Assembly: GCF_045679555.1 (NCBI RefSeq)
Contig: NC_092087.1
Location: 84,846,447-84,910,446 of the forward strand
Length of the DNA stretch: 64,000 nt
Reading direction: 5' to 3'
Source of the DNA: Salvelinus alpinus
Taxonomy: Eukaryota > Chordata > Actinopteri > Salmoniformes > Salmonidae
Part shown: positions 39,259 through 57,200 of the stretch, piece after piece
Layout of the letters: each line of letters begins with the position of its first letter
Numbering within the stretch: position 1 is the first letter of the stretch
The notes under the pieces: model-generated
Database searches by the model: none
What the model was told of the DNA's origin: nothing
Seen by the model: only the letters and a program-made list of their open reading frames with translations
Program-made: the position numbers and the translations under genes

Positions 39259-42200
39259 CTACCCTGCAGGTGTCACGTGTTTAACCAAAGTCTTATAATC
39301 AGTGACATCATCATAGATGACATCATCATCGCCTTCTCCATGGCGACTACGTTGTCGCTCCTGGCAACGGCTCACGGTTTGGAGCACGGTCACTAGGCGA
39401 CGGTCCAGGGCGGAGAGGTGCAGCTCCGAGAGGAGGGGGGCCACGGAGAATAGAGGATCATGGGAAAGAGAGTCCCTCATGACATCACTGAGACGGTACT
39501 GGGGCAGGGAGAGGAGACGCAGATGTAGGAGGGTGGAGCGACGGATCCTAGAGAGAAAGAGAGTGATGGAGTGAGAGTTATGAGAAAGAAGAGAAATAAA
39601 TGATGATGGTGGTGGTGGTAAGATAACATACTGAATTGTTTTAAGATGGTCATTTAGTTATTTTATTTCGAATTTTAGGACCTCTTGGTATATAAAAAAA
39701 AAAATGTTACTAGCCTACAGAAACACATTGAATAACAGATTCATACATGGAAAAACAATACAGCAGAAGGAAGTTTGTTTTCAAGTGTCTATCCTTTATC
39801 TGAGAGTTATAAGAAAGATAAGGAAATGATTGTCTTTTTTTACACATATTTAACCCTTTTTGTTAGAACACCATCGTGTTTGTGAGTCTCATCTTTCCAT
39901 AGAGTGATCACATTACTTTGTACGCCAAACCGTTCGGATGCTATCTATGTTTTTTAGAGAAATCCGAATTTCTGGATGTCTGCTGGTCTGAGAAACACCG
40001 CTGTAGCTCTGCCACCTCCCACTGTAGATGCGGAAGGCCAACATCGGTGGATGGGGTGGATTGAGACGCAGCCCATGTAAAAACAGATTTCTCTATCTGA
40101 AACAGATAGATTTTTATGGAGATGTTTTTATTATGCTAATTAGATTCATGCGGGGGCGCGGACATTGACTCTTCGGGGTGCTTAGTTATGCACACCATGT
40201 TTTACCTGCAGCACTGCTCCAGAGGTGTCAGGATAGAGGGTTCATCTTTAGAGTGACGTCCAAACCTGTAGTCCGCACACACAGTGTCAATGTTACAATC
40301 AACCATTGTTAGTTAAACCTGTAGTCAGCACACAGACAGTGTCAATGTTACAATAAACCATCGTTAGTTAAACCTGTAATCAGCACACAGACAGTGTCAA
40401 TGTTACAATCAACCATCGTTAGTTAAACCTGTAGTCAGAACACAGACAAATGTCAATGTCAGACACACACACATGCATGCACACACCATTAAAAAATCAG
40501 ATCATCAATTTCATTGTCAGGATACTCACGCCCTCCCATTGTCTAAGTGCAGAAGGAAAGTGTTGTTGCCAAACTTCTCAAATGTCTCATAGTGGTGTCG
40601 GTCCATATTACCTGTAACAAAATAATTAGTGTCTTTGTGTTTTATTTTCAGCTTTTTCCTCTTTCTGCTCATTGAAAAGACGTTGGTCTCCATGAACAGC
40701 ACCATAGAAAGGTATTATTATTACAGCATCATTACTATTATAGTTCTAATATATTATTATGTCCTGACCCAGACCTACCCATGAGGAAGTCTAGTATAGT
40801 CATGTCTAACAGGTACACCAGTCTCCCTCCCCAGCCCAGATCTACCCATGAGGAAGTCTAGTATAGTCATGTCTAACAGGTCCACCAGTCTCCCTCCCCA
40901 GCCCAGACCTACCCATGAGGAAGTCTAGTATAGTCATGTCTATCAGGTCCACCAGTCTCCCTCCCCAGCCCAGACCTACCCTTGAGGAAGTCTAGTATAG
41001 TCATGTCTATCAGGTCCACCAGTCTCCCTCCCCAGCCCAGATCTACCCATGAGGAAGTCTAGTATAGTCATGTCTAACAGGTCCACCAGTCTCCTTCCCT
41101 CCCCAGCCCAGACCTACCCATGAGGAAGTCTAGTATAGTCATGTCTATCAGGTCCACCAGTCTCCCTCCCCAGCCCAGACCTACCCATGAGGAAGTCTAG
41201 TATAGTCATGTCTATCAGGTCCACCAGTCTCCCTCCCCAGCCCAAACCTACCCATGAGGAAGTCTAGTATAGTCATGTCTATCAGGTCCACCAGTCTCCC
41301 TCCCTCCCCAGCCCAGACCTACCCATGAGGAAGTCTAGTATAGCCATGTCTAACAGGTCCACCAGTCTCCTTCCCTCCCCAGACCTACCCATGAGGAAGT
41401 CTAGTATAGTCATGTCTATCAGGTCCACCAGTCTCCCTCCCCAGCCCAGACCTACCCATGAGGAAGTCTAGTATAGTCATGTCTATCAAGTCCACCAGTC
41501 TCCCTCCCCAGCCCAGACCTACCCATGAGGAAGTCTAGTATAGTCATGTCTAACAGGTCCACCAGTCTCCTTCCCTCCCCAGACCTACCCATGAGGAAGT
41601 CTAGTATAGTCATGTCTATCAGGTCCACCAGTCTCCTTCCCTCCCCAGACCTAACCATGAGGAAGTCTAGTAAAGTAATGTCTATCAGGTCCACCAGTCT
41701 CCCTCCCCAGCCCAGACCTACCCATGAGGAAGTCTAGTATAGTCATGTCTATCAGGTCCACTAGTCCCCCTCCCCAGCCCAGACCTACCCATGAGGAAGT
41801 CCAGTATAGTCATGTCTATCAGGTCCACCAGTCTCCCTCCCCAGCCCAGACCTACCCATGAGGAAGTCTAGTATAGTCATGTCTATCAGGTCCACCAGTC
41901 TCCCTCCCCAGCCCAGACCTACCCATGAGGAAGTCTAGTATAGTCATGTCTATCAGGTCCACCAGTCTCCCTCCCCAGCCCAGACCTACCCATGAGGAAG
42001 TCTAGTATAGTCATGTCTATCAGGTCCACCAGTCCCCCTCACCAGCCCAGACCTTCCCATGAGGAAGTCTAGTATAGTCATGTCTAACAGGTCCACCAGT
42101 CTCCCTCCCCAGCCCAGATCTACCCATGAGGAAGTCTAGTATAGTCATGTCTATCAGGTCCACCAGTCTTCCTCCCCAGCCCAGACCTACCCATGAGGAA

Positions 42201-54200: not shown

Positions 54201-57200
54201 CCAGGCCAGACCTACCCATGAGGAAGTCTAGTATAGTCATGTCTATCAGGTCCACCAGTCTGGTTCCCTTGTTGTATGGTGGGGTCTTCTTCACTGTGTC
54301 ACAGTAGTCTGGGTCTTTCTCCCACCTGCAACGTGACAACAAGGTTAGAGTTGAGGCTAGAGTCAGGGTTAGGTTTGAGGGTTACAGTTAGAGTTGAGGG
54401 TCAGAGTTAGAGTTAAGGGTTAGAATTAGGGTTGAGGCTAGGGTTAGAGTTAGGGTTGCGGGTTAGAATTAGGGTTGAGTGTTAGAGTTATGGTTGAGGA
54501 TAGGGTTAGAGTTAGGGTTGAGGGTTAGAATTAGGGTTGAGGGTTAGAATTAGGGTTGAGTGTTAGAGTTATGGTTGAGGATAGGGTTAGAGTTAGGGTT
54601 GAGGGTTAGAATTAGGGTTGAGGGTTAGAATTAGGGTTGAGGGTTAGAGTTAGGGTTGAGGGTTGGAATTAGGGTTGAGGGCTAGAGTTAGGGTTGAGGG
54701 TTAGAATTAGGGTTGAGGGTTAGCATTAGGGTTGAGGGTTAGAGTTAGGGTTGAGGGTTGAGGGTTGGAATTAGGGTTGAGGGCTAGAGTTAGGGTTGAG
54801 GGTTAGAATTAGGGTTGAGGGTTAGAGTTAGGGTTGAGGTTTAGAGTTAGGGTTGAGAGTTGGAATTAGGTTTGAGGCCAGGGTTAGAGTTAGGGTTAAG
54901 AGTTGGAATTAGGTTTGAGGCCAGGGTTAGAGTTAGGGTTGAGGCTAGGATTAGGTTGAGGGTTAGAGTTAAAGTTGAGGCTAGGGTTAGAGTTAGGGTT
55001 AGTGTTAGGGTTGAGGCTAGGGTTAGAGTTGAGGCTAGTGTTAGAGTTGAGGCTAGTGTTAGAGTTGAGGCTAGGGTTAGAGTTGAGGCTAGGGTTGGAG
55101 TTGAGGCTAGGGTTAGAGTTATTATCTATCTATAGATATAGCTATAGACTCTATACCCACACTGCCAGTTTTCTGCGGCTGTAGGAGCGTTTCCAGGGAG
55201 ACCTCCAGGTACGTCTGGTGGCCAGGGAGGGGTCCGGCAGCATCATGGCCAGGGAGGCCTCCAGGTTCTGGGGTCGACCACACACAGCGTGCTCCGTACT
55301 GCAGTAGTAGGAACACTGGCCATAGAAACACACATTATTCACTAGGGGAGATAGAGGGGGATGGAGGGGGGAGAGGAGAGGAGAGTTTGAGTGCACTCTT
55401 CTCTTCATCATCAGGAGAGGCAGCAATTCAAGAGCTGACAGAGAGAGAGATTGAAAATGATAGAAATTAATTCAGCAAAAAAATTGCCTTTCCGCAGAAT
55501 AATATGCAGCATCTATTTTCATATTCCCCACTAGAGAAAACAGAGATGTGAAACATGTAATATAAGGAGAGAGTTGGTAAAGAAAGAGAAGTGAGAGAGA
55601 GGGAGATGGAGTGAGTGTGATAGAGGGATAGAGTGAAATGATGATAAACAGACCAGGAGAGGTGAAGAAGGTCCGGGCCAGTTTGTGGTCAGTGGTGATG
55701 TCTTTGATCTCTGTTACCACGTCAATCAGCCTCCCTACGGCTGGGGGGATCCTCCTGTAACCCAACACCCTGAGAGAGAGGGGAGTGGAGAGGAGAGAAG
55801 GGACAGGGGAGAGAGATGGGAGAGGGAGAGGTGGGGGGGTGTAGAGAGAAGGAGAGGAGAGAGAGGCAGAAAAAGATGGGAGAGGGGGATAGAGAGAGAG
55901 GAGAGGGGGAGAGAGAGAGAGAGAGAGGAGTATATGTTTAATGCTTCTCAATGTCTGCTCTATTCTCCACCATTTCAGTCAGTGCTGTGGCATGCTATAT
56001 ACTCCCCTGGCTGTTGCTATCAAGGTGAGAAACAGACTCATTGTTTACCTGTCCAGGTGAAAAGCAGCGATCTCTGCGTTGTGTCTCTCAAAGTCAGAGA
56101 AGTAGTAGAGGTTGAAGTTGGTCTCCTCATCACGCTCTTGTCTGACAGAGATACAGTCAACACAGGAATACAGCTATACAGACCATACACAGTCAACACA
56201 GGAACACAGCTATACAGACCATACACAGTCAACACAGGAACACAGCTATACAGACTATACACAGTCAACACAGGAACACAGCTATACAGACCATACACAG
56301 TCAACACAGGAACACAGATATTCAGACTATACACCCCAAACCGTCACAATTGGGTTGAGGTCGGGTGATTGTGGAGGCCAGGTCAGCTGATGCAGCACTC
56401 CATCACGCTCCTTCTTGGTCAAATAGCCCTTACACATCTTAAAGGTGTGTTTTGTGTCATTGTCCTTTTGAAAAACAAATTATAGTCCCACTAAGAACAA
56501 GCCAGATGGGATGGCGTATTGCTGCAGAATGCTGTGGTGGCCATGCTGGTTAAGTGTGCCTTGAATTCTAAATAAATCACTGACAGTGTCACCAGCAAAG
56601 CACACCCACACCATCACACCTCCTCCTCCATGCTTCACGGTGGGAACCACACATGCAGAGATCATCTGTTCACCTACTCTGCGTCTCACAAAGACACGGC
56701 GGTTGGAACCAAAAATCTCAAATTTGCACTAATCAGATCAAAGGACAGATTTCCACCAGTCTAATGTCCATTGCTCGTGTTTCTCGGGCCAAGCAAGTCA
56801 CTTCTTATTATTAGTGTCCTTTAGTAGTGGTTTCTTTGCTGCAATTTCGACCATCAAGGCCTGATTCACACAGTCTCCTCTGAATAGTTGATGTTGAGAT
56901 GTGTCTGTTACTTGAACTCTGTGCTTGATGGTTCTTGCGACTGCACTTGAAGAAACTTTCAGAGTTCTTGAAATTTTACAGATTGACTGACCTTAATTTC
57001 TTAAAGTAATGATGGACTGTCATTTCTCTTTGCTTATTTGAGCTGTTCTTGCCATAATATGGACTTGGTCTTTTTCCAAATAGGGCTATCTTTTTTATAC
57101 CACCCCTACCTTGTCACAATACAACTGATTGGCTCAAACGCATTAAGAAGGAAAGAAATTACACAAATTAACATTTAACAAGGCACACCTGTTAATTGAA

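Follow-up and report, generated by a model that had tools for sequence, protein, structure and literature searches.

In the 64,000-nt stretch of the Salvelinus alpinus genome analysed here (NC_092087.1, positions 84,846,447 to 84,910,446, forward strand; below, the window, numbered from its first letter), the end of one coding exon is repeated in tandem, together with its 5′ splice site, about 200 times. The exon is the seventh of a FAM20C-like kinase gene on the minus strand, and the array (40768..54259, minus strand) makes up nearly all of the intron that follows. We regard it as likely that this is a junction-spanning minisatellite, probably a variable number tandem repeat (VNTR), which was born by tandem duplication over the exon 7/intron 7 border of a gene that is intact, with the outermost donor being used and the copies being spliced out. 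The array itself is most likely neutral or mildly harmful.

The minisatellite has 201 units by our own division of the sequence, the end of exon 7 included, and Tandem Repeats Finder gives 200.9 copies of period 67 with 94% matches (40768-54261), so that the approximately 200 copies of an exon end and 5′ splice site claimed in the initial annotation are borne out. Each unit consists of a 44-nt exon 7 tail, the 5′ splice site and a 23-nt non-exonic part, in the order ACTGG...CATGG, then GTAGGTCTGGG, then CTGGGGAGGGAG. Its length is 67 in 165 units, 66 in 20, 71 in 14 and 68 in one, the last unit being cut by the end of the array, and there are 46 distinct sequences among the 201. The outermost unit is the functional exon 7 end at 54216 (the last 44 nts of the exon and GTAGGT), and the proposal that the array grew out of a working exon-intron border is supported. 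All 44 exonic nts are identical to those of the outermost unit in 112 of the 200 downstream units, which excludes chance. GT is kept at the donor position in 187 of 201 units, and a transcript would thus carry one true donor and then up to 200 near-copies of it. The hexamer is GTAGGT in 151 units and the weaker GTAGAT in 35, while the full authentic 9-mer, TGG/GTAGGT, is present in 144. The 14 units lacking GT have TT (10), AT (2), GC (1) or GA (1) in its place, and in 10 of them a GT one base upstream is possible.

The unit had been described as 43 nts of exon plus exactly 24 nts of intron 7. Its 67-bp length stands; the exonic share is 44 nts, or 46 when an ambiguous AG is counted, and only 11 of the 23 remaining nts match the surviving intron. 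These 11 nts, GTAGGTCTGGG, are the local intron start: at the end of the last unit (40742..40778, minus strand) GTAGGTCTGGG is followed by surviving intron, TCAGGACATAAT..., and past that unit the intron reads GTAGGTCTGGG-TCAGGACATAATA. The other 12 nts, CTGGGGAGGGAG, are in neither flank and are without an exact counterpart in the rest of the window, a 10-nt part of them matching once (58635, plus strand); they may be filler from the first duplication, or intron lost since. Searches of viral_contigs and genome_contigs for a 29-nt piece of the unit gave no exact match, which is the expected outcome for fish DNA. The 12 nts absent from both flanks are what speaks for the 67-bp repeat being an older satellite from elsewhere that acquired exon 7 sequence, or for a reverse order of events. 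However, with 44 contiguous nts of the unit equal to the coding exon end in its own place and 11 nts continuing into the local intron, a local origin is simplest, and an imported satellite is barely credible. The donor of the last unit is 167 nts from exon 8, so that the intron may originally have been some 170–200 nts long.

The order of the units shows duplication of blocks. Thirty consecutive units are matched exactly by those lying at a lag of 51 units, and shorter identical runs, of 11 units each, are seen at lags of 17, 25, 27, 34 and 76 units. At the 3,424-bp lag there are 8 mismatches in 2,160 nts and at the 1,682-bp lag 9 in 1,590; the mean pairwise difference among the 165 full 67-mers is 2.9%. 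Identical blocks of up to 30 units would also be seen if assembly had inflated the copy number by artificially duplicating some blocks of a real array. However, most block copies carry private differences (the mismatches just given), several different lags coexist, suggesting real history, and inflation of this kind, which we hold to be very unlikely, would not abolish the array. Units that occur once only are commoner near exon 8 (there are 18 among the 61 units 141-201, counting the cut last unit, and 4 among the 140 units 1-140), so that this end of the array looks older or less homogenised.

The copies show no sign of constraint, either coding or on the donor. With each kind of change counted once and the tree of units ignored, 3 of the 20 distinct changes in the exonic parts are synonymous, against 23% expected without constraint (p = 0.60). 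At the GT, 4 of the 6 possible changes are seen, versus 18 of 123 in exonic columns 1-41 (p = 0.008, post hoc), and in the donor 9-mer 8 of 27 (p = 0.09). Selection against decoy donors was considered as the cause of the GT excess and set aside, given its post hoc character, the value for the 9-mer and the lack of any excess of changes in the G columns alone (3/15 vs 6/24). A selected RNA structure was also discarded: 78 of 200 shuffled sequences fold as well as the consensus unit, which has no advantage over them (z = −0.24).

Could the donor copies persist because they regulate kinase output, either by drawing U1 or through degradation of extended exons? The donor still equals the authentic one in some 150 of the 201 copies, every one of the 200 possible extensions is predicted to end at the same early stop, and a donor-including VNTR in human ABCA7 alters splicing and expression with its length in the passages of the report available (PMC5954066). 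However, by the counts above the donor is no better conserved than the remainder of the unit, and recent copying alone would give shared intact donors; we hold a functional decoy array to be unlikely. The suggestion of a sink for the U1 small nuclear ribonucleoprotein is not supported. The donor is not conserved among the copies and, with U1 present at about a million per cell, the nascent transcripts of one gene would hold a small fraction of it. Masking of the decoys by G-quadruplexes was tried and rejected: a canonical motif is present at +1 nt in 149 of 201 units and not in the authentic one (54216-54259), which is one of 52 units whose donor is outside such a motif and so is unremarkable in this respect. 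With a folding model, no more than 9 of the 201 units had their donor inside a quadruplex.

The exonic parts encode 18 peptide versions of the exon 7 tail, the wild-type one in 117 units and one of 17 others in 84. It is conceivable, and highly improbable, that the array serves as a local store of variant forms of the helix preceding the catalytic Asp, able to rewrite the kinase by gene conversion or unequal exchange, while the approximately 150 intact decoy donors tune the amount of full-length kinase.

The host gene (39259..59641, minus strand) is complete in the window. Its ten coding exons, the last of which starts at 39547, are open with in-frame junctions throughout, and encode 578 residues, the same length as the coho salmon protein. 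Over the 482 residues of exons 1-9 that were compared, identity is 95% to coho and 75% to pike, and these exons score 252.2 bits against PF06702, the Fam20 C-terminal kinase domain (Pfam cut-off 26.8); the best solved structural relative is zebrafish Fam20C1 (5yh0). Exon 7 (54325-54216, 110 nts) ends in the outermost unit, its authentic donor, TGG/GTAGGT, following 54216. Exon 8 (40530..40611, 82 nts) continues as (G)NMDRHHYE, which agrees with the earlier statement that the repeated exon fragment encodes the segment just before the catalytic Asp, and has a second Asp, in LDNG, 20 residues further on. In the human enzyme D458 is the catalytic and D478 the metal-binding Asp (PMC4421793, in the part of that paper available), a spacing that DRHHYE and LDNG of exon 8 fit; both residues are present here. 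Exons 7 and 8 match coho at every residue (37 of 37 and 27 of 27, respectively). The seven database proteins aligned, which are largely predictions and come from six fish species, are all continuous over the exon 7-8 junction, though carriage of the array in those species is not thereby shown; one of the seven, a rainbow trout protein with no more than 68% identity to that of coho, is probably a paralogue. Judged by its sequence the gene looks functional (64 of 64 residues of exons 7 and 8 as in coho), and the outermost donor is therefore presumably used at least often. Intron 7 (40612..54215, minus strand) is 13,604 nts, versus 264 to 1,360 nts for introns 1-6 and 8.

How one donor would be chosen among so many can be considered in the light of minigenes in which identical donors compete downstream of one acceptor. 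In the accessible text of Carranza et al. 2022 (PMC9225289), flanking introns longer than approximately 250 nts go with a preference for the donor closest to the acceptor of the same exon, and of two identical strong donors with 365-nt flanking introns the upstream one was exclusively used in the five minigenes tested; with short introns, it is the donor nearest the next acceptor that wins. Those designed constructs had two donors each; the present intron, a natural one, has approximately 150 that are equal. Intron 6 is 835 nts and the outermost donor gives a 110-nt exon, so that exon definition predicts its use. Among the donors of exons 1-9, nine in all, the authentic one of exon 7 has the best computed pairing with U1 (−9.5 kcal/mol, unmodified bases).

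Several points weigh against the reading of an intact gene that splices from the outermost unit. By a donor scoring matrix the authentic exon 7 donor is a middling one (6.1 of 12.6 bits, the nine donors spanning 3.6 to 9.45), and in larger constructs weakened donors led to exon skipping, the larger exons being those skipped (PMC9225289, same passages). The donor of the last unit is so near exon 8, at 167 nts, that intron definition would favour it. The length of the array rests on one assembly, and the use of the outermost donor is something that we infer. Another reading is of an array that is real but damages the gene: donors near exon 8 or in early units would often be used, the former being favoured under intron definition by the published minigene results (PMC9225289, in part), or exon 8 would be skipped with a shift of frame, leaving the locus or this allele largely non-productive. 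Against this stand the ten open, in-frame exons and the full identity of exons 7 and 8 to coho, though a recent array would have left no decay yet; on balance a non-productive locus is unlikely.

Use of downstream donors would lengthen exon 7 to 181, 248, 315 nts and so on, and for 200 of 200 such donors predicted translation stops after residue 448. The nested exon-like products that had been envisaged are not supported. In addition to these early stops, the unit's only candidate acceptor AG has 6 pyrimidines in the 21 nts upstream (read by eye, no acceptor model having been run), and with no usable-looking acceptor in the unit neither nested exons nor a new intron are expected. Skipping of exon 8 is predicted to cause a frameshift and loss of both the catalytic and the metal-binding Asp.

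The course of events that best fits the preferred reading, a junction-spanning minisatellite in a working gene, would begin with a tandem duplication across the exon 7/intron 7 border of a salmonid FAM20C-like gene. Further duplications, of one unit or of blocks as long as approximately 3.4 kb, would then have enlarged intron 7 from perhaps 170–200 nts to 13.6 kb with the gene staying intact. The outermost donor, 110 nts from the exon 7 acceptor, would be chosen by exon definition and the copies would leave with the intron. Should a little splicing leak to the first or second donor downstream (181- and 248-nt exons), a premature stop would result, with decay of the mRNA as the probable outcome; a long array might also favour skipping of exon 8, with its frameshift. 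If it acts at all, the array would probably be a mild, length-dependent negative modifier.

The closest parallel is the VNTR in intron 18 of human ABCA7 (De Roeck et al. 2018, PMC5954066), whose 25-bp unit has the GT of the exon 18 donor as its first two bases. Retention of one unit through an array donor, giving a frameshift, is reported for it, exon 19 skipping rises with its length, and one expanded allele is of 9,711 bp (PMC5954066, in the passages available). In both cases the array is directly at the exon end, with the authentic donor in the first unit and recurring thereafter (in 187 of 201 units here). The ABCA7 unit is, however, without a coding exon tail in the passages seen, whereas the present one, of 67 bp, has 44 nts of coding exon and is known as 201 units in one assembly. 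By this precedent an effect of the array on splicing, which the initial annotation had raised, is plausible. For human FAM20C, a census paper mentions a repeat across an intron-exon junction for which an effect on alternative splicing had reportedly been indicated (PMC5941971, in the part available). A junction-spanning repeat is thus reported from the same gene family, and the kind of array is known, perhaps in this very family. Tandem duplication has also been considered for intron gain, where splice signals are multiplied inside a gene (the Rogers model and potato RdRp; PMC4974935, accessible part). In contrast to that model, only the donor is multiplied here, the candidate acceptor having the poor pyrimidine tract given above. 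A literature search found no description of this salmonid array, though most subscription papers were outside it and it is weak evidence of absence. Distinctive features here are the copy number of approximately 200, the presence of coding sequence in each unit, and, in intron 8, a further repeat that copies the exon 9 acceptor.

Provided that the array is genuine and the gene functional, one donor is picked amid approximately 150 equally strong copies that mostly share its 44 nts of exon context. Position (distance to the exon 7 acceptor, transcription order) would then be separable from sequence in donor choice. The locus pits exon definition, which points to the outermost donor, against intron definition, which points to the last, and this conflict makes it testable. 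It also shows a minisatellite capturing coding sequence, an exon end then evolving as a repeat unit. Alongside ABCA7 and what is reported of human FAM20C, both as far as the passages available go, it suggests that junction-spanning VNTRs recur.

The second junction-spanning repeat (40262..40459, minus strand) has a 55-bp unit in 3.6 copies and holds the acceptor of exon 9, which starts at 40265. The sequence A(C/T)TACAG/GTTT occurs four times in it, the authentic acceptor being the one nearest exon 9 and three copies being upstream. Use of any of these three is predicted to lead to a stop after ...GRAFN. A degenerate telomere-like array (54343..55121, minus strand) fills most of intron 6, ending 18 nts before exon 7, and on the transcript strand has 44 copies of CTAAC, a branch-point-like word. 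Arrays also end near other acceptors, 3 nts from exon 5 and 12 nts from exon 4, in addition to the 18 nts from exon 7; introns 6 and 8 are mostly array, and such closeness is expected there. Pieces in intron 3 (56330-56992, minus strand) resemble what we take to be a Tc1-type transposase.

Elsewhere in the window, an 84-bp repeat is present in 18 copies (18482-20025), its consensus reading by eye like what are presumably C2H2 zinc fingers. A 24-bp minisatellite of 169 copies (59969-64000) reaches the window's end. No lag of 1,000-2,599 bp gives above 98.5% identity over the whole of this array. Two of its peptide strings, at 61466-61831 and 63277-63642, are 1,811 bp apart and differ by one residue, which suggests duplication of a block, either in the genome or in assembly.

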